Position numbers and translations under genes: made by a program. A stretch of DNA of 64,000 bases, from assembly GCA_035502855.1 (NCBI GenBank), contig DATJTX010000003.1:1-64000 (forward strand), in the 5' to 3' direction. Of the stretch, positions 8,902 through 64,000 are shown piece by piece (position 1 is the first letter of the stretch; the number at the start of each line of letters is the position of its first letter). The notes under the pieces were generated by a model. It saw nothing but the letters and a program-made list of their open reading frames with translations, made no database searches and was not told the DNA's origin. Origin of the DNA: Candidatus Baltobacteraceae bacterium (GTDB taxonomy: Bacteria; Vulcanimicrobiota; Vulcanimicrobiia; Vulcanimicrobiales; Vulcanimicrobiaceae).

Positions 8902-10287
8902 ATGCGCGATCTGCGCGATATCGACGAACGGCTCCAGCAAAATCCCGGCAATCCGGAGCTGCTCTTTGCGCGCGCCTGCATCCTCGATCAGCTCGGGCGC
9001 AACGACGAGGCGCGCGACGCCTACATCGAAGTGATCAAGCGCAACGGATCCCACGTCGCCGCGCTCGGGAATCTGGGGACGCTGCTGTACAACGCCGGCT
9101 ATCGCAGCGCTGCGCGCCTGACGTACGCCGAAGCCCTCAAGCACGATCCGAGCGACCTTCGCTCGCTGGCAAACCTCGGCAACGCATTGCTGGAATCGGG
9201 CGATTTGCCCGAGGCACGGCAGCTCTACGAGCGCGCGATCGCGCTCGACCCTGCTTTTTCACCCGCGCATCAAGGGCTCAGTCACGTCCTCGGACGGCTT
9301 GGCGAACATGAGGCGGCAGAAGAACACCGGCAGGCGGGATTTGCGGCGATGCCGGTTGTCGTGAGCGCGTTTCGCGGCGCAGGAGCGCCGGTCTCGGTCT
9401 TGCTCCTCTGCTCGGCGTATCGCGGGAACGTACCGACCGACGTTCCGTTCGACGATCGCACCTTCATGGTGGTCAAACTCTTCACCGACTACTACGAAGC
9501 CGACTTGCCGCTGCCGCCGCACGACGTGATCTTCAACGGGATCGGCGATGCGGATCTTTGTGAAGGCTCGCTCCTCTCCGCGCACGCGTTGCTGCAGGCG
9601 CACGGCGCGACGGCGATCAATCCGCCGGAACTGGTGCGCGAAACCGGGCGCGTGCAGGTCGCGCAGCGCCTGCGCAACATCGACGGTCTGATCGTGCCCC
9701 ATATCGAGGCCGTCGGACGCGACGAGCTCGCGCGGGTCGAACGGTATCCGGTGCTGGTGCGAGCGCCGGGATATCATGCCGGCGAATTCTTCGAACTCGC
9801 GCGCGATCGGAGCGAACTGGAATCTGTTGCGGCGGCCCTCCCGGGCGAACGCCTCCTGACGATCGAGCTGCTCGACGCGCGCGGCGCCGACGGAGCTTAC
9901 CGCAAATATCGTGTGCTCTCGATCGGCGGCCGGCTCTATCCGGTGCATCTTGCGAGGTCGACGCACTGGAAGGTGCACTATTTTTCGGCGGATCTGGCGC
10001 GCACGCCCGAGGCCGTCGCAGAAGAAGAAGCGTTTCTGCGTAACATGCGGACCGCGATCGGCGAGCGCGCGATGCGCGCGATCGAAACCGCGGCGCAGCG
10101 AATCGGTCTCGAGTACTTCGGCATCGACTTCGGGCTCGACGCGCGGGGGAACGTGCTCTTCTTTGAAGCGAACGCCACGATGCGCGCGGTGGTGCCGGTG
10201 CGCGACGATCCCAACGAGGCGCGCCGCGCCGCCGCGCTGGCGGCGAATGCAGCGATCCGGGAATTGGTTCTATCGAAGCAGGCGTAG
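8902..10287 (+). CDS. TPR-repeat protein fused to an ATP-grasp-like domain
   Basis: A 461-residue protein with two parts. Residues 1 to about 145 form about four tetratricopeptide repeats (for example AALGNLGTLLYNAGYRSAARLTYAEALKHDP). Residues about 165-461 look like a RimK/D-Ala-D-Ala-ligase type ATP-grasp: the C-terminal metal-binding segment FGIDFGLDARGNVLFFEANATM carries the expected acidic residues and Asn, and an earlier YPVLVRAPGYHAG segment lies where a nucleotide-binding strand would be. The substrate is unknown; ligation of a carboxylate to an amine or thiol would be the family chemistry. Start at ATG 8902 begins the TPR. Its 3' end overlaps the next convergent gene by 18 nt. Confidence 0.75.
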   Translation: MRDLRDIDERLQQNPGNPELLFARACILDQLGRNDEARDAYIEVIKRNGSHVAALGNLGTLLYNAGYRSAARLTYAEALKHDPSDLRSLANLGNALLESGDLPEARQLYERAIALDPAFSPAHQGLSHVLGRLGEHEAAEEHRQAGFAAMPVVVSAFRGAGAPVSVLLLCSAYRGNVPTDVPFDDRTFMVVKLFTDYYEADLPLPPHDVIFNGIGDADLCEGSLLSAHALLQAHGATAINPPELVRETGRVQVAQRLRNIDGLIVPHIEAVGRDELARVERYPVLVRAPGYHAGEFFELARDRSELESVAAALPGERLLTIELLDARGADGAYRKYRVLSIGGRLYPVHLARSTHWKVHYFSADLARTPEAVAEEEAFLRNMRTAIGERAMRAIETAAQRIGLEYFGIDFGLDARGNVLFFEANATMRAVVPVRDDPNEARRAAALAANAAIRELVLSKQA

Positions 10288-51980: not shown

Positions 51981-54368
51981 ATGCCCCGCGTGGTGGATGC
52001 GCTCGCGACGATTCGCTCGTCGCGCTTCGATTTGCCGCTCACCTATGATGCGGGCGCGTTCGAGTTAGCGGTGGGCGAGGTGGTTCGCGTGCCGCTCGGC
52101 AATCGCGAGGTGCTGGCCTACGTCGTCACCGCTCCCTACGAGGCGCCGCCGGATTCCAAACGCAAGGCGGTGCTCGAACGGCTCGACGTGCCGCGTGCGT
52201 TCGACGAGGACGGTTTGCATCTCGCGCTCTTCGTCGCGGAATACTACGTGTGCACGCTCGGCGAAGCGCTCTCGGCCGCGGTGCTTGCCGGCGCGCTGCC
52301 GCGCACGATCGATAGCTTCGTGCGCACGGTCGCGCAGCCGAGTCCGCGGCGCTACCCGTCGGTTCCGGCGCGGCTCGTGCGATTGATTTGGGAAGAGCTC
52401 GGCGACGGCTTCGCGCTCGAAACGCTGCTGCGTCATCCGGACGCGCGCCGCGCCGGTGACCGCGGCGCCCTGCTGCGGCACCTGCAAACGCTCGTGCGCA
52501 GCGGCGAACTGCGGCGCGAGCGGCGCTTCGTGCAGCCCAAGACCAGTGCATACCGCATGCGCGTGCTCTATCCGGGCGATGCGCCGATTCGCGGGAGTAA
52601 AGCGCGGGCGCTGGCGGTGTTCGTGCGCGAGCAGCCCGGTGTGCCGCGCGCCGATGCGCTGCTGGCGGGATTCTCCAACGCGGTGATCGCGCGCGCGGTC
52701 AAAGCCGGCGCGCTCGAGGAGCGCGAGGTGGAACCGGCACGCGCGCGTTCGTTCAAGGCGCTGGGCGATGCGCCGTTCCCGCCGACGCCCGAACAAGCTG
52801 TCGCACTGGAACGCGTCGGGTCGGCGCTCGATACGCGCGCATTTCGCGAGCTGCTGCTCTTCGGGGTGACCGGCAGCGGCAAGACCTACGTCTACGTCGA
52901 GGCGATCAAACGCGTCGTGCGCGAGGGCGGGCGCGCAATCGTGCTCGTGCCCGAGATTTCGCTCACCCCCCAGACGGCGCGGCGCTTTGAGGAGAGCTTT
53001 GGCGATCGCGTTGCGGTGCTGCACTCGGCGCTCTCCGAGCGCGAGCGCTTCGATGCGTGGCAAGCCTGCGCGCGCGGCGAGATCGACATCGTGGTCGGGG
53101 CGCGCAGCGCGATCTACGCGCCGCTGCGCGATGTGCGGCTGTGCGTGGTCGACGAGGCACACGAGACCTCGTACAAGCAGGAGACGGTGCCGCGCTATCA
53201 TGCGGTCACCGTCGCGCGCGAGCGGATGCGCGCCGCGAACGGCGTGCTGGTGCTCGGCAGTGCGACGCCGCCGCTCGAGAGCTACGAAGCTGCGCTGCGC
53301 GGCAAGATCGAGTTGGTCGCGCTGCGCGTACGCGCGAGCGCGCAGCCGATGCCGCACGTGCATATCGTCGACTTGGCCAAGGAATTCGAATCCGGCAACC
53401 GCCGGATCTTCTCGACCATGCTTGCGGAGGCACTCGGCGAGCGGATCGAACGCGGCGAGAAGTGCGTGCTCTTCGTCAACCGGCGCGGGAGCGGCGGCTT
53501 CGTGCTCTGCCGTAATTGCGGTCACGTGCCGCATTGCCCGCGCTGCGACGTCTCGCTCTCCGCACATCGCAGCGAAGGTCTCCTCCGCTGTCACTACTGC
53601 GACTTTCAGATGCCGCTGCCGCGTGTGTGCCCGCAGTGCGGGCTCGAAACGATTCGCGAGTTCGGCGTGGGCACGGAACGGGTGGCAGAAGAAGTGGCAC
53701 GGCTTTTTCCGGATGCTCGGGTGGTGCGGATGGATTCGGATACGACGACGCGCATCGGCGATCACGCGCGCCTCCTCACGGAGTTCGGCGAGCGCGGCGA
53801 CGTGCTGGTCGGCACGCAGATGGTCGCCAAGGGCCTTGACTTCCCGACGGTTACATTGGTCGGTGTCGTAGCCGCCGACGTCGGTTTGCACATTCCTGAT
53901 TTCCGCGCCGCGGAGCGCACGTTCGATCTGATCGCGCAGGTCTGCGGGCGCAGCGGGCGCGCGAGCGTGGGCGAGGCGATCGTGCAGACCTACGCGCCGG
54001 AGCATCCGGCGATCGTCTACGCCGCAGAGCACGACTACGAGGGGTTCGCGCGCGGCGAACTCGAGCAGCGGCGCGAACTGCGCTACCCGCCGTTCTCGCG
54101 GCTCGTCTATTTCGGCGTCATCGGGCGCGGCCGTAAAGCCGCGCAGAGCGCGGGGGCGCGCTATGCGGAGATCTTGCGCGCCGCGAATATCGGCGAGGTG
54201 CTCGGGCCGGCGCCGTACGCGATCGCGCGCGTCAACAACGAGTGGCGCTTCCGCATTGCGGTGAAGACGCGAACACCAAAGCCGCTCCGCGCAGCCATAC
54301 GAGAGAAGCTCGTGCCCCTCGCTCGCGCCGACCGCGCGACGCGCCTGGCAATCAATGTCGATCCTTAA
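51981..54368 (+). CDS. priA: Primosomal protein N' (PriA helicase)
   Basis: A 795-residue replication-restart helicase. The 3'-DNA-binding domain is N-terminal. Walker A is GVTGSGKTYVYVEAI (about 290-304) and the DEAH box is VVDEAHETSYKQE. The zinc-binding cysteines form pairs C-RNC, C-PRC, C-HYC and C-PQC between about 510 and 555. The helicase C lobe has VGTQMVAKGLDFP and CGRSGRAS. The ATG lies 3 nt after aroB. Its final codons (ATRLAINVDP) form the first copy of the repeat that punctuates the next three genes. Confidence 0.96.
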   Translation: MPRVVDALATIRSSRFDLPLTYDAGAFELAVGEVVRVPLGNREVLAYVVTAPYEAPPDSKRKAVLERLDVPRAFDEDGLHLALFVAEYYVCTLGEALSAAVLAGALPRTIDSFVRTVAQPSPRRYPSVPARLVRLIWEELGDGFALETLLRHPDARRAGDRGALLRHLQTLVRSGELRRERRFVQPKTSAYRMRVLYPGDAPIRGSKARALAVFVREQPGVPRADALLAGFSNAVIARAVKAGALEEREVEPARARSFKALGDAPFPPTPEQAVALERVGSALDTRAFRELLLFGVTGSGKTYVYVEAIKRVVREGGRAIVLVPEISLTPQTARRFEESFGDRVAVLHSALSERERFDAWQACARGEIDIVVGARSAIYAPLRDVRLCVVDEAHETSYKQETVPRYHAVTVARERMRAANGVLVLGSATPPLESYEAALRGKIELVALRVRASAQPMPHVHIVDLAKEFESGNRRIFSTMLAEALGERIERGEKCVLFVNRRGSGGFVLCRNCGHVPHCPRCDVSLSAHRSEGLLRCHYCDFQMPLPRVCPQCGLETIREFGVGTERVAEEVARLFPDARVVRMDSDTTTRIGDHARLLTEFGERGDVLVGTQMVAKGLDFPTVTLVGVVAADVGLHIPDFRAAERTFDLIAQVCGRSGRASVGEAIVQTYAPEHPAIVYAAEHDYEGFARGELEQRRELRYPPFSRLVYFGVIGRGRKAAQSAGARYAEILRAANIGEVLGPAPYAIARVNNEWRFRIAVKTRTPKPLRAAIREKLVPLARADRATRLAINVDP
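54338..54368 (+). repeat. 31-bp repeat R1 (3' end of priA)
   Basis: GACGCG followed by cctggcaatcaatgtcgatc and cttaa; it contains the last codons and stop of priA. Related copies lie at 54946, 55547 and 56748, each just after the stop of one of the next three genes. The consensus is approximately GACGCGgCTTGCGATCAACG plus TCGATCCTTA, with an imperfect palindrome GATCaACGTcGATC at its centre. Confidence 0.7.
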
Positions 54369-54476
54369 GGAACGCACAATGAAGAACGGGCGCTATTCCC
54401 AGTAGCAAACCAGAAAATTGCCGCTGGTAATGAACTCGTGCTTGAAAGGGCGGGCAGCGACGGCAACGATCAGTAC

Positions 54477-54510
54477 TAATCCAGGATGGGCTGAATACGA
54501 GCCTGGATTA
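54477..54510 (+). terminator. Hairpin, probable terminator after priA
   Basis: A perfect 9-bp inverted repeat, taatccagg (54477-54485) and cctggatta (54502-54510), with a 16-nt loop is followed by ttcctattg. It lies about 110 nt after priA in a 222-bp gap that otherwise shows only repeat R1 and no gene. It could alternatively be part of a leader for the next gene. Confidence 0.45.
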
Positions 54511-54590
54511 TTCCTATTGAGTGATTGTTTGTGAGCGGAGCCTGGGCGCGCTACTGCGCCCGCTCGCTGGCTCGGTTGGGAGGATGCTCG

Positions 54591-54923
54591 GTGGCGCGTA
54601 GGGTGCTCATGTTTGCCATAGTTGCGCTGGTCGTGTTCTTCCTATGGGGACTTGCAACGCAGGCTGGGTTACAGCGGCGTCAGGATGCTTTCATAGGCCG
54701 GCTGCAACAAGGGCAGAGTGTGACCGACGTAAGGCGAATAGCGTTTGCGATGGGCATACCGATCGGCGGCGTTGAGGGAGCATCGGCGAACACTTTGACG
54801 GCCGAGGTAGGACAGACATGGAGACTCTTCACGCCGTGTAGCGATGCCTATTACGTGCGCCTAACCTTTGAGAGCGACAAGCTCGCGGCGTGGAGTGAGT
54901 ACGACGGCCAAGTTTGCATGTAG
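54591..54923 (+). CDS. Small bitopic membrane protein, unknown (first cassette-like gene)
   Basis: A 110-residue protein with one N-terminal membrane helix (VLMFAIVALVVFFLWGLAT) and a soluble part with two cysteines (FTPCSDAYYVRL and the final GQVCM). I do not recognise it. The GTG at 54591 is supported by gggagg 8 nt upstream; a TTG at 54525 is in frame but unsupported. Repeat R2 begins 23 nt after its stop. The surrounding DNA looks less GC-rich than priA by eye, which may indicate transfer. Confidence 0.6.
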   Translation: MARRVLMFAIVALVVFFLWGLATQAGLQRRQDAFIGRLQQGQSVTDVRRIAFAMGIPIGGVEGASANTLTAEVGQTWRLFTPCSDAYYVRLTFESDKLAAWSEYDGQVCM

Positions 54924-54945
54924 GGAACCGGACTCCCTTGCGCGC

Positions 54946-54976
54946 GTCGCGCCTTGCGATCAACGCGGCTCCATAA
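54946..54976 (+). repeat. 31-bp repeat R2
   Basis: GTCGCGccttgcgatcaacg followed by cggctccataa. It matches the R consensus best over ccttgcgatcaacg and lies 23 nt after the stop of the 54591 gene, 608 bp from R1. It is the most degenerate copy at its right end. Confidence 0.55.
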
Positions 54977-55110
54977 AGCGGGATGGTCCCAAGGCGGAAC
55001 CTGCCACAATTGAAATCGGAGGTTAGCAGTCGATCGAAAAAATACGATTCTCGTGTGCGATCGGTTCGGCGGCGCTTGCGGTTGCTGTTTCGTTCGCTCC
55101 GTGGATCCTG

Positions 55111-55452
55111 ATGCTCTCGCTCTACAACCGAGTGCCTCCGGAGAGTTTTTATGGCTTGACATTTATGGCGGGGGTCCCGTCGATAATCCTAGCAGGGCCC
55201 CTGGCCCTTGCTTTTATCGCGCTCTTGGGAGCAAGGCTCTCGGGCGAAATGAAACAGCGGGTTTACTGGATACTTAGTTCGCCAGCGATTGCGTTCCAAT
55301 CCATCTATCTCTCCAGCTCCCTATTACCATTTATCGCTTTCGGTGTGGTTATGGGCAATCTCGTAGCGGCGGTGTTTTGGACCGCCACTTACTGGGCGCT
55401 TTTCCGGGTCGCGCCGATCTCCCCAGTCGATTGGGGATCGAGTGACGAGTGA
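55111..55452 (+). CDS. Polytopic membrane protein, unknown (second cassette-like gene)
   Basis: At least 113 residues with three membrane helices from the ATG (GVPSIILAGPLALAFIALLGA, WILSSPAIAFQSIYLSSSLLPFIAFGVVMGNLVAAVFW). The coding-like frame continues upstream to 55027 as SIEKIRFSCAIGSAALAVAVSFAPWILML, another membrane helix, but with no ATG, GTG or TTG. A ggagg at 55018-55022 lies 10 nt before an in-frame ATC at 55033. Either a rare start is used, the start was lost, or the ATG at 55111 is real. I recognise no family. Repeat R3 follows 94 nt later. Confidence 0.5.
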   Translation: MLSLYNRVPPESFYGLTFMAGVPSIILAGPLALAFIALLGARLSGEMKQRVYWILSSPAIAFQSIYLSSSLLPFIAFGVVMGNLVAAVFWTATYWALFRVAPISPVDWGSSDE

Positions 55453-55546
55453 GACACTCCGGCCGTGCGGCGCGCTTTGCGGTCCATGTTTTCCCGTGCG
55501 CTGCTATTCGCGTGAAAGCGCAGCGGCTCGTCTGCGCCGGCCACGC

Positions 55547-55577
55547 GACGCGGTTCGCGATCAACGTCGATCCTTAG
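55547..55577 (+). repeat. 31-bp repeat R3, with extended similarity to the priA end
   Basis: GACGCGgttcgcgatcaacg followed by tcgatccttag. It is the closest match to R1, and similarity extends upstream to about 55526. In frame, 55513-55577 reads RLVCAGHATRFAINVDP-stop against KLVPLARADRATRLAINVDP-stop at the end of PriA. It is a degenerate copy of the priA 3' end, 601 bp from R2. The 253-bp gap around it holds no other gene that I can support. Confidence 0.75.
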
Positions 55578-55705
55578 CGCGGTCATATCGGTCTGCATGT
55601 GACGGAGCGGAACCCCCGTGTCGCGCGCACCGCCATGATCGCTACGGGCTAGGTGCGGCGAAGGTTCGCCTCCGCAAAAAACGTAACAGCGTTGGAGATG
55701 TTGCG

Positions 55706-56740
55706 GTGGAAAGAAGAAGCCGCCCTTTGAAAGGCATTTTGAGTCTCTCTTCGCTCCTGTTTGCTGCCGCCGTGGGTTTGGGGGCAGGTACCGCTGGCGG
55801 AGCACGGACCTATGCAGCACGAGCGCCGCAGGCGGTCGTCGCAAGGGACGCGATAAGGGCCGCCACGGTTCGCTCGGAAACCTTGGACCAGTCGTCACAA
55901 CTCGTGGTCGGGACACCCGTGCAGACGGAGCAGACGCCGGTACTCATGCTCTCGTGCGGCTTGCGATTCGGCAAGCCCCCTGGCTCTCCGAATCAGACGG
56001 TTACGTATTCATTCTCGGTGTACAACCAGGAGCCGAAGAAGCTGCGATACGTGGCTGTTACCGATCGTTTTGACCGCGGAAATTTCCAAGGCGGATTCAT
56101 CTTCAATTTGAATGCCCACGAATTTCGTCGCGTCGCGTTCACCCGTTCGAGCGAAGATGACGCTGGCGTTGCGGTGTTGCTGGCAGCGCGGCCGACGTTC
56201 TACCTTTGCGGTACCGGACCGGACCAGGGCGCCGATGGAACAGTCTACCCTTTCGCGTCGATGTCCCTCACCAACAACACGTTCCTCCTATCGACAAAGC
56301 CGGGTGACAAGAACGGCGTGCCCATCTCGCCTTTCGCAACGATGCAAACGATCAGGTTTTCAGGAAAGGCTTCCGCCGTCATCGGCATCCCAATTCAGCC
56401 TCTCGCGTTAAAGGAATGGCCGTCATTCAGGACCGGCGTTCCGGGTATCAATCTCTTGCCGGTCGTGGTCACGGCCTGCAGTGTCACGATGCCCACGCAT
56501 GCCGGCCATCGAGCGCCTGAAGTCTCGTTTTCCTTGTACAATCAGACGCCGCGCGTCGTGCCGTCTGCGCAACTCAGCGTCGCCGTATCGGGAAGGGGTG
56601 AAATCGCACGAGTCTATGGACTGAGGGCGTACGAATACCGAACCGCGGCGTTTCCCGCCGACGAGAGGCTTGAGTCTGCACTTTGGGCCCGCGGGGTCAA
56701 AGTTATGGGATGTCGTGCGTCCGTGCCAGCCGACCCGTAG
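55706..56740 (+). CDS. Exported protein, unknown (third cassette-like gene)
   Basis: A 344-residue protein with a signal peptide (GILSLSSLLFAAAVGLGAGTA). The mature part holds two similar halves. Each starts with a Cys-containing strand (MLSCGLRFGKPP; VTACSVTMPTHAG), followed by a SFSVYNQEPKKLRYVAV or SFSLYNQTPRVVPSAQL segment and then an LNAHEFRRVAF or LRAYEYRTAAF segment. It is therefore an internal duplication of a roughly 100-residue beta domain. I recognise no family. The GTG at 55706 has ggag 9 nt upstream. Repeat R4 begins 7 nt after the stop. Confidence 0.65.
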   Translation: MERRSRPLKGILSLSSLLFAAAVGLGAGTAGGARTYAARAPQAVVARDAIRAATVRSETLDQSSQLVVGTPVQTEQTPVLMLSCGLRFGKPPGSPNQTVTYSFSVYNQEPKKLRYVAVTDRFDRGNFQGGFIFNLNAHEFRRVAFTRSSEDDAGVAVLLAARPTFYLCGTGPDQGADGTVYPFASMSLTNNTFLLSTKPGDKNGVPISPFATMQTIRFSGKASAVIGIPIQPLALKEWPSFRTGVPGINLLPVVVTACSVTMPTHAGHRAPEVSFSLYNQTPRVVPSAQLSVAVSGRGEIARVYGLRAYEYRTAAFPADERLESALWARGVKVMGCRASVPADP

Positions 56741-56747
56741 GTTCTCG

Positions 56748-56778
56748 ACGCGGCTTGCGATCAGCGTCGAGTCTTCAC
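56748..56778 (+). repeat. 31-bp repeat R4, overlapping the end of the GntR gene
   Basis: GACGCGgcttgcgatcagcg followed by tcgagtcttca. It lies 7 nt after the stop of the 55706 gene, 1201 bp from R3, and includes the last codons and stop of the GntR gene on the other strand. It forms the right edge of the repeat-punctuated region. Confidence 0.6.
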
Positions 56779-57423
56779 CGCCGGAGTCTTACCCTTAGGG
56801 TTCGTCGGCGTTGAGATGGGAATGCGCTCGCTCAGCCGGCCAATGTGCTTGTAGAGTAGCTCGGCTGCGCGTTTGACGTCGCGTTTCTTCGTGAGATCGA
56901 GGAGCGCGCCGTGTTCCGCGTTGACTTCGTCGAGGTCATGCTTGAGTTCGAAGTATCGCTCGCCGATGCGGTGCAAGCGTTCGACCAGACTCAACGTCAG
57001 CGGTGCGCCAGAGGCGTGATAGAGCGCCTCGTGAAAGGCCCAGTTGTGGGCCGAGTAGGAACCGCCTCGCCGGTTCGAAGTGAGCGCTGCCAGCGCTTTT
57101 CTCGATCGTGCGAAATCCTCATCCGTCATCTTCGGGATCGCCTGCGTGAGAAGTTCGACTTCGAGCAATTGGCGCAAGCGGATGATCTCTTCGAGTTCGC
57201 GCTGCGAGAGCTGCGAAACGACGGCCCCGCGGCGTGATTCGATCGAAACCAAGCCCTCCGCGTTGAGCCGCCGCAGCGCTTCCCGGACGGGGATGTGGCT
57301 CGCACTGAACTGCTCGGCGATTTCCGCCTGCCGAAGCCGTTCGCCGGGCCGCAATTTCCCGGAAAGAATCCTTTCGCGAAGGCCTTCAGCGATGCGGTCC
57401 TCGATCGTCGCGTGCACGCTCAT
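56761..57423 (-). CDS. GntR-family transcriptional regulator (FadR/FCD subfamily)
   Basis: A 220-residue regulator. The winged helix-turn-helix is at residues about 10-75 (LRERILSGKLRPGERLRQAEIAEQF, IPVREALRRLNAEGLV). The all-helical FCD ligand domain is at about 80-205 (RLRQLLEVELLTQAIP; metal-binding His in NWAFHEALYHAS and HGALLDL). It binds a small carboxylate in known members. It is translationally coupled to the hydrolase upstream (ATGA) and probably represses this hydrolase cluster; palindromes in the 58.37 and 61.1 kb gaps are candidate targets. Confidence 0.9.
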   Translation of the reverse strand: MSVHATIEDRIAEGLRERILSGKLRPGERLRQAEIAEQFSASHIPVREALRRLNAEGLVSIESRRGAVVSQLSQRELEEIIRLRQLLEVELLTQAIPKMTDEDFARSRKALAALTSNRRGGSYSAHNWAFHEALYHASGAPLTLSLVERLHRIGERYFELKHDLDEVNAEHGALLDLTKKRDVKRAAELLYKHIGRLSERIPISTPTNPKGKTPAVKTRR

Positions 57424-58361
57424 ATCGGCGTGCTCTCGCTGATGACGCGACGCACGGCCTGAACCACCGCGTCCGGACGATCGAGCTGGATGTCGTGCCC
57501 GGCGCCGGGGACGTGCTCGTTGACGCCGCGGACCGAGAGGCGAGCCTGTTCGTCGTGCATCGCGCTCCATGCGCGTTGCGCCGCGGCAACCTGAGCATCG
57601 CTCGCGCCCAGCAGCCGCTGATAGCGCTTGAATTGCGCGCCTCCGGTCAATACGATGAGCGGAAAATCATAGGGTGCCCGATGTGCGTGTTCGAGCTCGG
57701 AAAGATCGGCGTTGTGTGTATTCTGAAGTTCCGATAGAGCGTCGGCCCACGCCGGCGCGCTGACGGCACGGCCGTTCTGCGGTGGGCACAAGCGCGGCGC
57801 GTCTTCGCACGTTCGCAGCATCGTGATCTGGAGCGCGTCGAAACGCCGCAGTCGCGGCAAGAGCGCATTCAAGCGGGCATCCTGGTGTTCGTCGGAGGGA
57901 TCAACGAGAACCATGCCGCGCACCTGGGCAGGGTACCTGTCCGCGTACAACCGCATGTCGTAACCGCCCATCGAATGACCGACGAGGATGTAAGGCGCTG
58001 CGATCCCCGCCCGTTCCAGGAGTGTGTGAAGATCGGAAACGATAGCGCTGGTCGTGCGCGGGAGAGGGCCCGGATCGCTAAATCCGGCGCCGGCGCGATC
58101 GTAGGAGCATACGCGGGTAAATGTTGCGATCCGCGGCTGCACGTAACGCCATGAGCGCGTCGAACCGCCGCCTCCGGCATCGAGAATAACCGGCGGCGAC
58201 CCGCGACCGGTGCAATAGATGTTCATGCGTCGCCCGGCGCCGACGTCGATCAATCGTTGCGGATGCGCGTATACGTCCGAAGCTCGGGCCGGTCCGGTCA
58301 AGAGCAGTGCGGCCGCAGCACATTGGGCGAACACCTTTGCGACGTCAACTTGCCCGGGCAT
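57420..58361 (-). CDS. Alpha/beta hydrolase, exported
   Basis: A 313-residue hydrolase with a signal peptide (VFAQCAAAALLLTGPARA). The nucleophile elbow is GHSMGGYDMRLYADRYP (Ser about 130), preceded by the oxyanion region LDAGGGGSTRSW. The catalytic His is late in VPGAGHDIQLDRPD. The fold suits an esterase, amidase or proline-iminopeptidase-like enzyme. I chose the ATG at 58361 because a consensus promoter (TTGACA, 17 nt, TATACT) ends 8 nt before it, which would make the mRNA leaderless; a TTG at 58367 is also in frame. It shares an operon with the GntR gene. Confidence 0.85.
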   Translation of the reverse strand: MPGQVDVAKVFAQCAAAALLLTGPARASDVYAHPQRLIDVGAGRRMNIYCTGRGSPPVILDAGGGGSTRSWRYVQPRIATFTRVCSYDRAGAGFSDPGPLPRTTSAIVSDLHTLLERAGIAAPYILVGHSMGGYDMRLYADRYPAQVRGMVLVDPSDEHQDARLNALLPRLRRFDALQITMLRTCEDAPRLCPPQNGRAVSAPAWADALSELQNTHNADLSELEHAHRAPYDFPLIVLTGGAQFKRYQRLLGASDAQVAAAQRAWSAMHDEQARLSVRGVNEHVPGAGHDIQLDRPDAVVQAVRRVISESTPI

Positions 58362-58398
58362 CGGCAAATAGTATATAATATATTATTGTCAGTGTCAA
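58350..58398. promoter_or_regulatory. Overlapping divergent promoters with a central palindrome
   Basis: On the minus strand, TTGACA (58398-58393) and TATACT (58375-58370) are separated by 17 nt, matching consensus at 11 of 12 positions. On the plus strand, TTGCCC (58350-58355) and TATAAT (58374-58379) are separated by 18 nt. The two -10 boxes overlap. A perfect palindrome ataatatattat (58375-58386) covers them and could be the operator of the GntR repressor, letting one site control both directions. Confidence 0.65.
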
Positions 58399-58420
58399 AT
58401 TCCGGAGGCTCGGTCCTCGC

Positions 58421-59800
58421 ATGACGTTTGGGCGACGCGCGTGGTTAGCGGTGATCGTCATCGCGGTTTTTCTCGGCGAATCGATCGGTGCCGCTCGCGG
58501 AAGCACCGGGTCGTTCATACGTGCGGACGATCGCGCCGCACTTCGTTCGCTGCTGCCGAGCGGCACCGGTGCCGTCATCGTGCTGGGCTATCTCGCGCCC
58601 GACGGAACCCGCTCCTACGACGTCATTACGCCGCCATCGGGAACCGCGTCCGGGATCGGGCCGCACAGTCTCTTCGAGGTCGGATCGATAACGAAGACGT
58701 TCACCGCGATCGCGCTCGCGCACATGGTGCGCGCGGGAGCGATCGCGCTTTCGAGCCCCATCCAAACCTATCTCCCGGCGGGCGTGAGGGCGCCCACGTT
58801 CGACGGAGAGCAGATAACGGTGCAAGATCTTGCGGATCACCATTCCGGCTTGCCGCGCATGCCGCCGGGATTGGTGTTTGCCAGGCCCGGCGCCCTTGCC
58901 GATTACACTTCGGCGCAGTCGTACGCCGCACTCGCCGCCTACAAGCTGACGCGGGCGCCGGGTTCGCAGTACGAATACTCGAATTGGGGCGTCGGGCTGC
59001 TCGGGCAACTGCTCGCTACGCGCGCCGGGACTTCCTACGCGCATCTCGTGGAAAGGGCGATCATCGACCCACTGCGCTTGCGCGACACGTCGGTGCCTGC
59101 GCCGAACGCCACCGCCGGCGACATCGTAGCCGGCTACGATGCCGATGGAAATCCGCAGCCATACATGACGTGGAACGGCTCGCTCGCGGGCGCCGGGGCG
59201 ATTCGTTCGTCGGTGAGCGATCTGCTGACGCTCGGATCCGCGTGCCTGCCCGGAGCGGGTACACCGATATCCGGCGACTGTGCCTTTGCAATTGAGCCGC
59301 GCGCCGATGCGGGAAAGCAAAAGGCACGGGTCGGGCTCGTGTGGGAAACGCAGGACCAGGATAAACTCGTTTGGCACAACGGCGACACGCTGGGATATCA
59401 TGGGTTCTTGGGAATCGACCCGGTCCATCACACCGTACTTGCGATGCTCTCGAACGTCAGCGTCTTCATGGATTACACGGCGTTGCACGTTCTCGATCCG
59501 TCCTTTCCCGTTCCGCGCACACCGCCGCCGCTCGTCTTACCGGCGGCGAAGCTCGCCGCCTATGAAGGACGCTATCGGCTTGCCGACGGCAGCCATTCGG
59601 CAATCATCGTCGAGGAAGATGCGCAGGGGCTTCGCATGAGAGACGGCCGCGGGCAGCATTTTGCGCTCACAGCCATCGCCCCCGACACATTTAGAACGCG
59701 TGAGAACGAGACGCTGACCTTTTGCACGCGAGCCGATGGGAGCGTGTATGCGGTCGTAACCGATCAATACGGAAAGATCGACGTAGCGACGCGCTCGTGA
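58421..59800 (+). CDS. Serine hydrolase of the class-C beta-lactamase/DD-peptidase fold (S12), exported
   Basis: A 459-residue exported hydrolase with a signal peptide (AWLAVIVIAVFLGESIGAARG). The catalytic SxxK is SITK (about residue 91), the YxN motif is YSNWG (about 187), and the third motif is HNGDTLGYHG (about 326), the HxG form used by esterase/peptidase-like members rather than KTG lactamases. A C-terminal beta-barrel-like domain of about 90 residues follows (AAYEGRYRLADGS). MlrB, the linear-microcystin hydrolase, belongs to this same superfamily. The stop overlaps the next gene (GTGA). Confidence 0.88.
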   Translation: MTFGRRAWLAVIVIAVFLGESIGAARGSTGSFIRADDRAALRSLLPSGTGAVIVLGYLAPDGTRSYDVITPPSGTASGIGPHSLFEVGSITKTFTAIALAHMVRAGAIALSSPIQTYLPAGVRAPTFDGEQITVQDLADHHSGLPRMPPGLVFARPGALADYTSAQSYAALAAYKLTRAPGSQYEYSNWGVGLLGQLLATRAGTSYAHLVERAIIDPLRLRDTSVPAPNATAGDIVAGYDADGNPQPYMTWNGSLAGAGAIRSSVSDLLTLGSACLPGAGTPISGDCAFAIEPRADAGKQKARVGLVWETQDQDKLVWHNGDTLGYHGFLGIDPVHHTVLAMLSNVSVFMDYTALHVLDPSFPVPRTPPPLVLPAAKLAAYEGRYRLADGSHSAIIVEEDAQGLRMRDGRGQHFALTAIAPDTFRTRENETLTFCTRADGSVYAVVTDQYGKIDVATRS

Positions 59801-61074
59801 GCCGCACACTGCGCGTAGGGGCCCTGCAATTGCCGGCGCACGATCGCGACCGATTCGCCGAGGTCTGGCCCGATATCGTCGCTTCCGTGTATGCCGCGGC
59901 GCGTTCGGGCGTAGAGCTGCTCGTCTTGCCCGAGGGAACGGTGCCGTCGTACGTAGTCGGCTTCGATGCATACGATCCGAGCGAGACCGACGCCGCCGTG
60001 CACGAGCTGTGCGACGTCGCACGGACCTGCGCGATCGTCATCGTCGCGGGCGTTGTGCGGCGTGAAGGTGGAACGCTCAGGAACAGCGCGGTCGTCGTTG
60101 ACGCCGATGGCACGATCGCCGGCGTTGCGGACAAGCATTTCCTGTGGGGGTTTGACCGGCAGTGGTTTTCGCCCGGCGAAGGCTTTGCGCCGATCCCTAC
60201 GCGAGTCGGACGCATCGGTGCACTCGTCTGTGCCGATGGGCGGATTCCGACGATCGCCCGGGCCCTGGTCGAACGCGGGGCCGACCTGCTCGCGATGCCG
60301 ACGGCGTGGGTGACGAGCGGCCGAGATCCGGCGAACTTGGAGAATCCACTCGCCGACGTTTTAGCCCGCACGCGTGCGCGCGAGAACGGGACGCCGATCG
60401 TATGCGCGGATAAGTGCGGCGCCGAGCTTGGATGCGTCGCCTACGCCGGGAAGAGTCAAATCGTCGACGCGGCAGGTACCGTGCTCGCGATCGCGTCGCA
60501 GCAGAGACCGGAATTCATTCAGGCGGAGATCGAGCTTTCAACGACGCCGCGGATATTTGCGCGCGTCGACGATCTCCAACCCAGGGTAGCTACGCCGGTT
60601 TCCGACAGTTTTCGCATCGCCTTCGCGGCCGCGCGCGAAATACGGGCGCATGACGAGCGATTGACGATCGTCGAGGCGCAGGCCCTGATCGCTCCGGCGA
60701 CCGGAATCGATGAGCTTCACAAGCTCGTACCCGCGGTTTGCGTCGACGACGAGAAGATGATCGATCCGGCGTTTCTCGTGCGATACCGCTGCAGCGGATA
60801 TCAACTCGTCCTCTGGCGGGCATCATGCGATGCGCAATGGCAAGAGCTGTTCGCGCGCGCCAGGGCGACCGAGCTTCGGTTGTTCGTCGTGGTGCTGGGA
60901 GGAGAGCGCGCCTTCGCGGTCGATCCCGACGGCGCGGTCGTCGCCGGAACATTCGACGGTTACGAAATAGCGACGTTTTATTTTGAAGGGACCCGGACCA
61001 TGCGAACGCTCGTGGCGCCCGGGACCGACATTCTCGATGAGTTTCGCGGCGTTGCGCGGCTGCTCGAACGATAA
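59797..61074 (+). CDS. Carbon-nitrogen hydrolase (nitrilase superfamily) with a degenerate second domain
   Basis: A 425-residue protein. Residues 1 to about 260 are a complete nitrilase-fold amidase: catalytic Glu in VLPEGTVPS (about 48), Lys in ADKHFLWGF (about 112) and Cys in ALVCADGRIP (about 147). Residues about 270-425 look like a shortened second copy that keeps the late strands (LFVVVLGGERAFAVDPDGAVVAGTFDG) but no catalytic triad. It would hydrolyse an amide or nitrile in the cytosol. The start is GTG 59797, coupled to the upstream hydrolase. The 80-bp gap after it holds repeated operator-like sequences. Confidence 0.85.
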   Translation: MSRTLRVGALQLPAHDRDRFAEVWPDIVASVYAAARSGVELLVLPEGTVPSYVVGFDAYDPSETDAAVHELCDVARTCAIVIVAGVVRREGGTLRNSAVVVDADGTIAGVADKHFLWGFDRQWFSPGEGFAPIPTRVGRIGALVCADGRIPTIARALVERGADLLAMPTAWVTSGRDPANLENPLADVLARTRARENGTPIVCADKCGAELGCVAYAGKSQIVDAAGTVLAIASQQRPEFIQAEIELSTTPRIFARVDDLQPRVATPVSDSFRIAFAAAREIRAHDERLTIVEAQALIAPATGIDELHKLVPAVCVDDEKMIDPAFLVRYRCSGYQLVLWRASCDAQWQELFARARATELRLFVVVLGGERAFAVDPDGAVVAGTFDGYEIATFYFEGTRTMRTLVAPGTDILDEFRGVARLLER

Positions 61075-61094
61075 CGGAGGAGCTGCCGGATGGT

Positions 61095-61132
61095 GAGCAG
61101 TATTTAGTCGAGCGGAGCAGTATATTGCTCCG
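61095..61132. promoter_or_regulatory. Repeated operator-like site
   Basis: The 9-mer gagcagtat occurs at 61095-61103 and 61115-61123, 20 bp apart, about two helical turns. The second copy is the left half of a palindrome, cggagca (61113-61119), gtatat, tgctccg (61126-61132). It lies just before the second serine-hydrolase gene and shares an agtata core with the 58.37-kb promoter region. It is a candidate target of the GntR or XRE regulator. Confidence 0.5.
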
Positions 61133-61154
61133 CCGATTTCCTCTGGAGGTACAC

Positions 61155-62306
61155 GTGGGACGTCGCTCCTCAGCCGCGGGCCGCATCGCGGCCGCACTCG
61201 TGGCACTCAGCCTGGTGTTCAGCCTCCCCGCACCGGCGCTTGCCGGCGCGCTCACGGCGGCTCAGATCGCGAAGATCGACACGATCGTCACGACGGCGAT
61301 GTCGCAGCAGCATTTGGTCGGCGTGGAGGTGGCGATCGGGCGCAGCGGCACGACGCTTTTCACCAAGGGTTACGGCCTGCGCGACCAGGCGAAAAACCTT
61401 CGGGTCACGGCGAACACGGTGTTTCCGATCGGGTCGATCAGCAAGCAGTTCACCGCGGCTTGCGTGATGCTGCTGGTGCAGCAAGGCAAAATCGATCTCG
61501 ACGCCAAGCTCGCGACGTATTTGCCCGATGTGCCGCACGCGTCGGCGATCACCGTGCGAGAGATCCTCGACCAAACCTCGGGGCTCCACGATTACCTCGA
61601 GAACAAGCCGTTGCTCGGATCGGTGATGACGGGCGCGAAGAAGAGCCACGATCCGTTCGCCTATTACGTCAACCTGACGCGCGACATGCCGCTCAAATTC
61701 AAGCCGGGTACGAAATGGCAGTACAGCAACACCAACTACATGGTGGCCGGGATGCTGGTTGAGAAGATCAGCGGCGAGCGGTTCGGTCGATTTCTCTCGC
61801 AAGCGATCCTCAAGCCGCAAGGTCTGAGCGCGATACAATATCTCACCTGGTCGATCCCTGCCGGCAACGACGTCACGCGCGGCTACAATTATATAAAAGG
61901 CAGCTATTCGCTGGTGCCGCGTTATGATATGAGCTGGGGCGGTTCAGCCGGCGCGCTTGCGTCAACGGCGTCTGATCTGGTGAAGTGGGATGGCGCGTTC
62001 TTCGGCGGCAAGGTCATTTCGCAGAACAGCGTCGAGATCGCCACGACGCCGCCGCGCGGTATGACCATGGGCCTCCCGGCGGGAAAGACCCAAAGTGCAA
62101 TCGCGCAGGGATACGCCTTCGGCTGGGTCGCCGGACATGACGAGGGGCGCCGGCTCATTTGGCACAACGGCGGGCTCATCGGTGCGCGCGCAATGAACCT
62201 CGTCTTTCCCGACGACGGTCTCGAGATCGTCGTCCTCACCAATGCAACGACCGCCGACCCCGAGGCGATCTCGCTGCACGTCGCGCGCCTGCTCTACGCG
62301 CAGTAG
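61155..62306 (+). CDS. Second serine hydrolase of the beta-lactamase fold (S12), exported
   Basis: A 383-residue exported protein: signal peptide GRIAAALVALSLVFSLPAPALAG, SxxK in GSISKQF (about residue 97), YxN in QYSNTNY (about 194) and HNGG in LIWHNGGLIG (about 336). It is shorter than the hydrolase at 58421 because it lacks the C-terminal barrel, and the two are only distantly similar, so they probably have different substrates. The GTG at 61155 is supported by ggaggt 4 nt upstream. Confidence 0.88.
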   Translation: MGRRSSAAGRIAAALVALSLVFSLPAPALAGALTAAQIAKIDTIVTTAMSQQHLVGVEVAIGRSGTTLFTKGYGLRDQAKNLRVTANTVFPIGSISKQFTAACVMLLVQQGKIDLDAKLATYLPDVPHASAITVREILDQTSGLHDYLENKPLLGSVMTGAKKSHDPFAYYVNLTRDMPLKFKPGTKWQYSNTNYMVAGMLVEKISGERFGRFLSQAILKPQGLSAIQYLTWSIPAGNDVTRGYNYIKGSYSLVPRYDMSWGGSAGALASTASDLVKWDGAFFGGKVISQNSVEIATTPPRGMTMGLPAGKTQSAIAQGYAFGWVAGHDEGRRLIWHNGGLIGARAMNLVFPDDGLEIVVLTNATTADPEAISLHVARLLYAQ

Positions 62307-62335
62307 GTTGAGCTGTACCTGCCGGAGGCCCTGAC

Positions 62336-63763
62336 TTGCGTATATTCACTGCCACGCTTGTTACCGAAACGAACACGTTCTCGCCCATTCCCACGGGTTT
62401 GCGCAGCTTCGACCGAGCGCGCTCGCAAGCGGACGTCGCATCGATGGCCGAGTGGCGGCGTAGAGGTGAAGCAGACGGGCATACGGTGATCGAGAGCATT
62501 GCCGCCATCGCGCAGCCGGCGGGGCCGACGGTTCGTTCGGTCTACGAATCGCTTCGCGACGAGCTGTTGAACGATCTGCGCGCGGCCTTGCCCGTCGACG
62601 TCGTTCTGCTCTACCTGCACGGCGCAATGGTGGCGGAGGGTTATGACGATTGCGAAGGCGACGTGCTGGAGCGCTGCCGAGCCGTCGCCGGCGAGCGTGC
62701 GACGATCGGCGCCGAGCTGGATCTTCACGCGCACCTCACCAACCGGATGCTCTCGGCGGCAACGGCGATCGTCTCGTATAAGCGGTATCCGCACACCGAT
62801 ATCGTCGATCGTGCGATCGACCTGTACCGGATTTGCCTCGATGCGGCCGCCGGGAAAACGCATCCGGTCTGCGTCAGCTACGATTGCCGCATGTCGGGGG
62901 TCTTTCCGACGACGGCCGAGCCGCTGCACACATTCGTCGACGACATGTCGGCACGCGAGCAGGGCGGGATTCTCAGCCTGAGCTTGATCCACGGTTTTCC
63001 GTGGGGTGACGTTCCCGAGGCTGGGGCGAAGGCGCTTGCGATTGCCGACGGCGATCCGGCACTGGCGCTGCGCGTCGCACAGGAATTCGGCCGGCGCTTT
63101 CAAGCGATGCGTGACGAAGCCATCCTCGCTCCGGCGCGAGTCTCCGACGCGCTCGACGCCGTGATGGCGGCTCCGGCCGGCCCGGTGGTGCTCGCCGACT
63201 TTGCGGACAATGCGGGCGGCGGCGCGCCGGGCGATGCCACCTACCTCCTTCATGCCGTCCTCGAACGCGGCATAACGAACGCCGTGAGCGGAACGTATTA
63301 CGATCCGATCGCCGTCGATATGTGTTTCGAAGCCGGCGAGGGCGCGACGCTCGATTTACGCTTCGGCGGAAAGCTCGGGACGGCGTCCGGACGACCCGTG
63401 GACGCGCGCGTCACGGTGCGGCGCCTGGACGAGAACCATCAGCAGGACTCGATGGACGACACGACGCCGGTCGCCCTGGGGCGAAGCGCCTGGGTTCACG
63501 CGCGGGGCGTCGACATCGTCCTCGCCTCGCGACGCACGCAGGTCTTTGCGCCCAATGCGTTTACCGGGCTTGGGATCTCGCTCGACGACAAGAAACTCAT
63601 CGTCGTGAAGTCCTCCCACCATTTTTGGGGGAAGTTTGCCCCGCTCGCCAAACGAGTCATCCACGTCGGCGCCCCGGGAGCGCTTTCGCTCGACTTCGCC
63701 GCGATCGACTATCACAAGCGCGATCTGAACTATTGGCCTCGAATCGGTACGGAGATCTCATAA
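62336..63763 (+). CDS. M81-family metallopeptidase (MlrC-like)
   Basis: A 475-residue protein similar to MlrC, the microcystinase that cleaves linear peptides near the Adda residue. Metal-binding candidates are in LYLHGAMVAEG, GAELDLHAHLT (Asp and two His) and SYKRYPHTD. The family's C-terminal domain starts near VVLADFADNAGGGAPGDATYLL. It begins MRIFTATLVTETNTFSP. The start is the TTG at 62336, fixed by ggagg 7 nt upstream. It shares a base with the next start (TAATG). There is no signal peptide, so peptides must be imported first. Confidence 0.9.
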   Translation: MRIFTATLVTETNTFSPIPTGLRSFDRARSQADVASMAEWRRRGEADGHTVIESIAAIAQPAGPTVRSVYESLRDELLNDLRAALPVDVVLLYLHGAMVAEGYDDCEGDVLERCRAVAGERATIGAELDLHAHLTNRMLSAATAIVSYKRYPHTDIVDRAIDLYRICLDAAAGKTHPVCVSYDCRMSGVFPTTAEPLHTFVDDMSAREQGGILSLSLIHGFPWGDVPEAGAKALAIADGDPALALRVAQEFGRRFQAMRDEAILAPARVSDALDAVMAAPAGPVVLADFADNAGGGAPGDATYLLHAVLERGITNAVSGTYYDPIAVDMCFEAGEGATLDLRFGGKLGTASGRPVDARVTVRRLDENHQQDSMDDTTPVALGRSAWVHARGVDIVLASRRTQVFAPNAFTGLGISLDDKKLIVVKSSHHFWGKFAPLAKRVIHVGAPGALSLDFAAIDYHKRDLNYWPRIGTEIS

Positions 63764-64000
63764 TGCCGCGACGGCCGGCAAAACACATTCCGACGACCAA
63801 GTCTGCGCCGGCGCCCGACGTCGGAACGATTCTCAAGCGGCTGCGCGACCGCAATGGCGTGAGCGTCCGCGATCTTGCGAAGGCGAGCGGACTCTCGGCC
63901 TCGTTCATCCGTGCGGTCGAACGGGGCGATTCCGACATCTCACTCGGACGGCTCGCGCGGCTGGCGCAATTCTTCGAATACGATCTGGGCTCGTTCTTGG
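63763..64000 (+). CDS. XRE-family regulator, N-terminal part (partial at window end)
   Basis: The visible 79 residues contain a basic N-terminal tail (MPRRPAKHIPTTK) and a complete helix-turn-helix (LKRLRDRNGVSVRDLAKASGLSASFIRAVERG). The usual XRE end LGRLARLAQFFEYDLGSF follows. Regulators with this layout often carry a C-terminal cupin sensor, but that part is outside the window. It is coupled to the M81 gene (TAATG) and probably regulates the hydrolase cluster. Confidence 0.85.
   Translation, partial: MPRRPAKHIPTTKSAPAPDVGTILKRLRDRNGVSVRDLAKASGLSASFIRAVERGDSDISLGRLARLAQFFEYDLGSFL

Follow-up and report, generated by a model that had tools for sequence, protein, structure and literature searches.

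Four direct repeats of the priA 3' end separate three accessory genes in a Vulcanimicrobiota genome and may mark a decayed stack of small insertions

The first 64,000 nucleotides of contig DATJTX010000003.1 of Candidatus Baltobacteraceae bacterium (assembly GCA_035502855.1; contig positions 1–64,000, hereafter the window) contain priA, a DNA-repair gene, and three genes (open reading frames ORF1, ORF2 and ORF3) that are packed together with three copies of the priA 3' end (R2, R3 and R4) into the 2.4 kb on its 3' side, all on the same strand (Table 1). R2, R3 and R4 are placed 3' of ORF1, ORF2 and ORF3, respectively, and the end of priA itself is the first repeat, R1. The encoded PriA (795 aa) has 89% identity to a fragment of PriA from G001, a genome of the same genus, and 53–75% identity to family members; it is of full length and has the C terminus usual in the family, and the target gene thus retains a functional-type end. 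The source genome (3.3 Mb, 39 contigs, 97% completeness) is metagenome-derived, as are most of the named relatives, and our genome-wide statements come from searches.

Table 1. Features of the priA–thrE region; positions are those of the window except for thrE, and scores (bits) refer to the 62-member matrix described in the text
Feature	Position	Strand	Description
priA	51981..54368	+	Final gene of a gene run that includes aroB (aroB by Pfam)
R1	54333..54368	+	Working priA 3' end, RATRLAINVDP-stop; 39.1 bits
ORF1	54591..54923	+	110 aa from GTG (132 aa from TTG at 54525); one membrane helix and a small alpha/beta domain
R2	54941..54976	+	Degenerate priA 3' end copy, 18 bp past the ORF1 stop; ASRLAINAAP-stop; 21.5 bits; genome-wide E 3e-6
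ORF2	55111..55452	+	113 aa, predicted membrane protein (hydrophobic sequence); orphan
R3	55498..55577 (core 55542-55577)	+	80-nt priA 3' end copy, in frame, ATRFAINVDP-stop; 42.0 bits
ORF3	55706..56740	+	344 aa, predicted secreted protein
R4	56742..56777	+	Degenerate priA end copy without stop codon, directly behind ORF3; 21.1 bits; genome-wide E 9e-6
gntR/FCD regulator	56761..57423	-	Pfam GntR and FCD; first gene of the 18.5-kb island; stop is the TCA within R4
Catabolic island in window	57423..64000		Pfam: alpha/beta hydrolase, two beta-lactamase-family proteins, CN-hydrolase, M81/MlrC
thrE	G000:C3:75260-76450	-	

The four direct repeats of the priA 3' end are genuine. We scored the window with a weight matrix made from the priA 3' ends of relatives (33, later 62), our own genome being excluded, and with 33 members R3, R1, R4 and R2 were the top four sites on both strands, followed by sites of 12.2 and 8.4 bits; one control site reached 16.8 bits, still under R2 and R4. 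With 62 members the control maximum was 14.2 bits over 1.44 million positions, well short of the scores in Table 1, and in 40,000 Markov simulations of each interval the score of R2 or R4 was never attained. A genome-wide profile search, which is less independent than the matrix because the profile contains the four copies, returned these copies only (E 2e-8 to 9e-6; next match, E 0.009), all of them confined to the spot behind priA and in a single orientation, and a consensus search allowing up to three mismatches found only R3 and R4 in the genome. A candidate fifth repeat at 55467 scored 12.2 bits with the 33-member and 9.3 bits with the 62-member matrix, and was rejected as not significant. 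The first-pass annotation of this DNA had described four repeats behind priA and three genes in the same orientation, with R1 as the coding end of priA and R3 reading ATRFAINVDP-stop, and this description holds with a few corrections: R4 was one base out of register (it starts at 56742, with a spacing of 1200 rather than 1201 bp), R3 is a copy of 80 nt and not of 31, and the PriA frame and stop, recognised there for R3, are also preserved in R2, which had been missed. R4 has lost the stop, and a TCA is common to all four repeats.

In strict register the repeats are spaced by 608, 601 and 1200 bp, that is, near multiples of 600, for which we found no explanation. Such spacings would fit the tandem duplication of a unit of about 600 bp, made of the priA tail and downstream DNA, in which all but the tail was later eroded (608, 601 and about 2 × 600). 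However, the intervals between the repeats have no residual similarity to one another (p 0.2–0.8) although R1 and R3 share 59 of 80 bases, and so uneven an erosion would need selection; because the intervals share nothing, we regard this origin as decidedly improbable and in practice excluded.

Over its 80 nt, R3 is nearer to the priA end of its own genome than to any other among 63 priA ends, and its local alignment score of 70 lies above the shuffle maxima of 47 in one test and 37 in another. Early alignments had favoured other species, and a foreign origin of R3 was rejected once the full length was compared. R2 and R4, by alignment, are copies of only about 36 nt, so that the repeats are unequal in length. 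Short and unequal copies, local and in one orientation, with the own priA as nearest source for R3, might also be repair scars, left when template switching in repair or break-induced replication copied the priA tail nearby as foreign DNA was joined. Random patches of this kind should differ, whereas three of the copies begin at the same handful of codons, finish at the same stop and each lie shortly behind a separate gene, and we consider this route distinctly unlikely.

The array also differs from its surroundings in composition, as had been judged by eye, against priA, in the first-pass annotation: positions 54369–56744 have a guanine-plus-cytosine (GC) content of 58.9%, within the lowest ~2% of equal windows (mean 63.4%). 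Neither ORF1 nor ORF2 belongs to a Pfam, NCBIfam or PHROG family. Among 149 genomes of the phylum ORF1 matched itself and one marginal sequence (E 2e-4), and ORF2 had no match in the other 59 genomes, so that these two are orphans as first proposed. ORF3, also listed as an orphan, is not one, since its N-terminal half is distantly related to proteins of two family genomes, G025 and G011 (E 5e-12 to 7e-10, 29–32% identity; 27–32% across relatives). In G025, three ORF3 relatives stand in a row about 1 kb apart (G025:C6:279074-281560). The structure model of ORF1 (predicted local distance difference test, pLDDT, 69) has a weak likeness to the BamE/SmpA/BLIP (beta-lactamase inhibitor) fold, the best Foldseek match being BamE at E 0.12, a predicted likeness too weak to suggest a function; the model of ORF3 (pLDDT 34) was of no use. 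Searches found no viral relatives of ORF1–3, no plasmid relatives of ORF1 and ORF3, and no exact match to the site in IMG/VR. On these comparisons the cargo is of the kind found among bacterial accessory genes and gives no hint of a viral source, and, as it shares the direction of priA, it might be read from the priA transcript.

The array meets a catabolic island at R4, which marks the seam. R4 overlaps the 3' end of gntR on the opposite strand and holds the last codons of this gene. The island runs on beyond the window as far as contig position 75259, next to thrE, and the whole insert between priA and thrE measures 20.9 kb (20,892 bp; G000:C3:54369-75259, corresponding to window 54369-64000 plus L110:1-11259), composed of the low-GC array and 18.5 kb of genes of ordinary composition. 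By their families, the island genes point to peptide or amide turnover (gntR, hydrolases, three beta-lactamase-family proteins, CN-hydrolase, M81, SBP_bac_5, DUF1611 and MR_MLE). No copy of the priA end is present at the thrE side of the insert. The closest GntR relative, in genome G108, is 68% identical and has a different tail, that of our GntR being longer; the abh–gntR pair recurs in G108 at another place, and the DNA similarity ends at 56797, 19 bp from R4. Because this homology stops so close to R4, and because R4 supplies the final codons and the stop of gntR, the arrangement suggests that gntR may have been joined to the priA end before the array came to lie between the two.

We also weighed whether the contig joins several organisms at a conserved priA tail, for which the contig number and completeness given above, and the mostly metagenome-assembled relatives, leave some room. 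Four joints within 2.4 kb, beside a full-length priA and with an orthologous thrE 20.9 kb away on the same contig, would be hard to produce by chance, and copies as diverged as these are not confusable by an assembler; such an artefact is very improbable.

At 21 loci, ours included, priA and thrE face each other. With gap lengths estimated from the end of the thrE alignment, the two genes overlap or lie at most ~90 bp apart at 15 of these loci, from which the island is missing as well as the array, and in no relative is priA joined to gntR. The remaining six carry an insert, of 276 bp in G011, 652 bp in G092, 1371 bp in G010, 1676 bp in G029, 5747 bp in G013 and 20,892 bp in our genome, and pairs from the same genus differ (1371 bp in G010 versus 9 bp in G087; 5747 bp in G013 versus overlapping genes in G103). 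The genes of the inserts in G029, G092 and G001 start right behind priA in the same direction, the insert of G013 starts with opposite-strand genes, and reading frames are less clear in that of G010 (the gap-insert loci behind priA are L034, L037, L043, L130 and L064). The insert of G001 is a different one of low GC content (57.5%; L114:1601-3256), right behind priA, with a 281-aa gene that carries, as judged by eye, a Fic-type motif, followed by the beginning of another gene; the G001 contig breaks off short of thrE. As 15 gaps are nearly empty while five relatives have inserts, same-genus pairs among them, this is an insertion spot, and the priA–thrE gap is a recurrent landing place for accessory genes in the family, normally without repeats.

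The repeat pattern itself is known from one genome only. The motif occurs with up to two mismatches in 66 of 99 family genomes, and ours alone has a second copy beside priA, all other second matches being distant or on a different contig. In the DNA that follows priA in the relatives, taken to a length of up to 12 kb, nothing reached the level of R2 and R4 with the 62-member matrix, and candidate priA-end copies within the inserts of G010, G013, G029, G092 and G011 were not convincing. The first-pass annotation had set recurrence in relatives as a test of its proposal, and this recurrence was not found; what does recur in relatives is the insertion spot, the priA–thrE gap, but free of the repeats, and variation of the array in number and content is not demonstrable because the repeats are absent from relatives. 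That relatives gain genes in the same gap without a repeat, that the copies are unequal (80 nt in R3, about 36 nt in R2 and R4) and that no recombinase is linked to them would agree with circular or linear foreign DNA carrying a piece of priA and joined repeatedly by homologous or homology-assisted single crossover, which would yield the same anatomy with no site-specific recombinase. However, a homology of 36–80 bp is short for RecA-type recombination, and with four copies and no longer piece of priA the same short stretch must have been reused each time; we hold this explanation to be unlikely.

The genome has four matches to Phage_integrase (tyrosine recombinases), on contigs C23, C27 and C37 (two), none of them near the array; a tyrosine recombinase accompanying the repeat, as anticipated at first, was not found, nor did similarity to these recombinases reveal one in relatives over the stretch of up to 12 kb that follows priA. 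A large serine recombinase (PF07508) is absent from the genome. The phage-type integrase on C23 adjoins a tRNA-Glu gene (L111, near 9133–9945) and likely belongs to a tRNA-targeted element, and this other likely target led us to reject it as partner of the repeats. The C37 pair (G000:C37:3153-4987; L084, L085) comprises two adjacent frames of 454 and 553 aa on one strand, perhaps a multi-recombinase element; it was likewise rejected, as no priA-like site above background occurs in 16 kb. By title and abstract, we found no paper that records priA as an integration site.

The succession of gene and repeat in one orientation, with units of 0.6–1.2 kb and orphan or secreted products, recalls a cassette array of an integron, or of an integron-like system, whose attC sites would be unusual, integron cassettes being one-gene modules with a repeat after each gene. 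The first-pass annotation had already noted that the integron core GTTRRRY/RYYYAAC is absent from the repeats, and we confirmed this (AAC is missing in R1 and R4); moreover, the repeats do not fold better than shuffles (R1–R4, z −0.54 to 0.60), which leaves no attC-like fold. The array has no IntI, the recombinases classified, those on C23 and C37, match the integron integrase family far under the NCBIfam cut-off or not at all, and what is repeated here is coding sequence from the end of a resident gene. These data give no support to an integron-like system, and a true integron we regard as extremely improbable. It seems decidedly improbable to us that single genes are strung behind priA by a cassette system of another kind than integrons, with a recombinase acting in trans, the priA tail as shared site and the priA transcript providing expression. 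The cassette analogy describes the layout only and does not establish a mobile system.

We consider that the array may have arisen when small pieces of DNA were inserted one after another into the priA 3' end by site-specific recombination, the resulting stack having since decayed, and give this reading a probability of about one half. Of the two ideas in the first-pass annotation, integron-like cassettes and repeated integration into a gene 3' end, it is the second that fits the anatomy best and has a precedent. Three unrelated genes lie between four copies of one gene end, and these copies score well beyond chance and occur at this spot only; many relatives have priA and thrE almost in contact here, the low GC content of the array argues for insertion, and R3 is closer to its own priA than to the 62 other priA ends, as would be expected of a site matched to this lineage. 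Also in favour are the position of R4 exactly at the seam with the island and the lack of similarity between the intervals, which sets the array apart from a tandem duplication. Each piece would have brought along a variant of the priA tail that served as its recombination site, and its joining at priA would leave the gene with a working end while pushing the previous tail and the older cargo downstream. R4 would then be the tail of greatest age, stranded at what was once the boundary to the gntR island. The pieces would have been joined by a tyrosine recombinase supplied from elsewhere and now unlinked from the array; the repeat copies have since diverged, and the stack has probably lost its mobility.

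The model for this stacking is the tandem accretion of integrative elements and their remnants, the cis-mobilizable elements (CIMEs). Incoming elements can pile up with remnants that lack integration genes (PMC5704250). As in CIMEs and the tandem accretion of the ICESt1 family, the pieces here have no integration genes, are flanked by att-like repeats and lie in a stack behind a target gene; however, the array is much smaller and shows no trace of a gene of integrative and conjugative or integrative and mobilizable elements, and we do not class it as a CIME because no recombinase is nearby and no related genes lie behind priA in relatives, although other strains may possess one. In the pathogenicity island PAISt of Streptomyces turgidiscabies, inserted at the bacA 3' end, three direct copies (repeat lengths 141 and 138 bp) bound two modules of 105 and 569 kb, which have been shown to excise separately, with a known 8-bp core (PMC4057263). 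Both systems use the 3' end of a protein-coding gene as target, several direct copies of this end delimit the modules, and an internal copy divides the stack; in contrast to PAISt, with its integrase, large modules and excision, our array has one-gene modules and no recombinase. The pattern is genuine and of a known kind, and it is unusual in its scale.

Several observations weigh against stacked insertion. Neither the array, nor the part of the contig examined, nor, by similarity to the recombinases of this genome, the stretch of up to 12 kb that follows priA in relatives holds an integrase, a relaxase or another mobility gene, and the phage-type integrase on C23 has another likely target in the tRNA-Glu gene beside it. 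Known integrative elements far exceed these one-gene modules of 0.6–1.2 kb in size. The degree of decay does not follow position, R3 being better kept than R2 although R2 would be the younger in a simple stack, and no relative shows the repeats, their inserts being free of them.

Should the stacked-insertion reading be correct, pieces as short as one gene suffice for stacked integration at the end of a gene, and no resident integrase is needed, in a phylum, the Vulcanimicrobiota, whose mobile elements are little studied. It would also account for the accumulation of genes downstream of a housekeeping operon, where immediate transcription would be possible. Whatever the mechanism, the priA–thrE gap is a repeated landing place in this family, and it offers a defined site at which to look for gene exchange in soil metagenomes.

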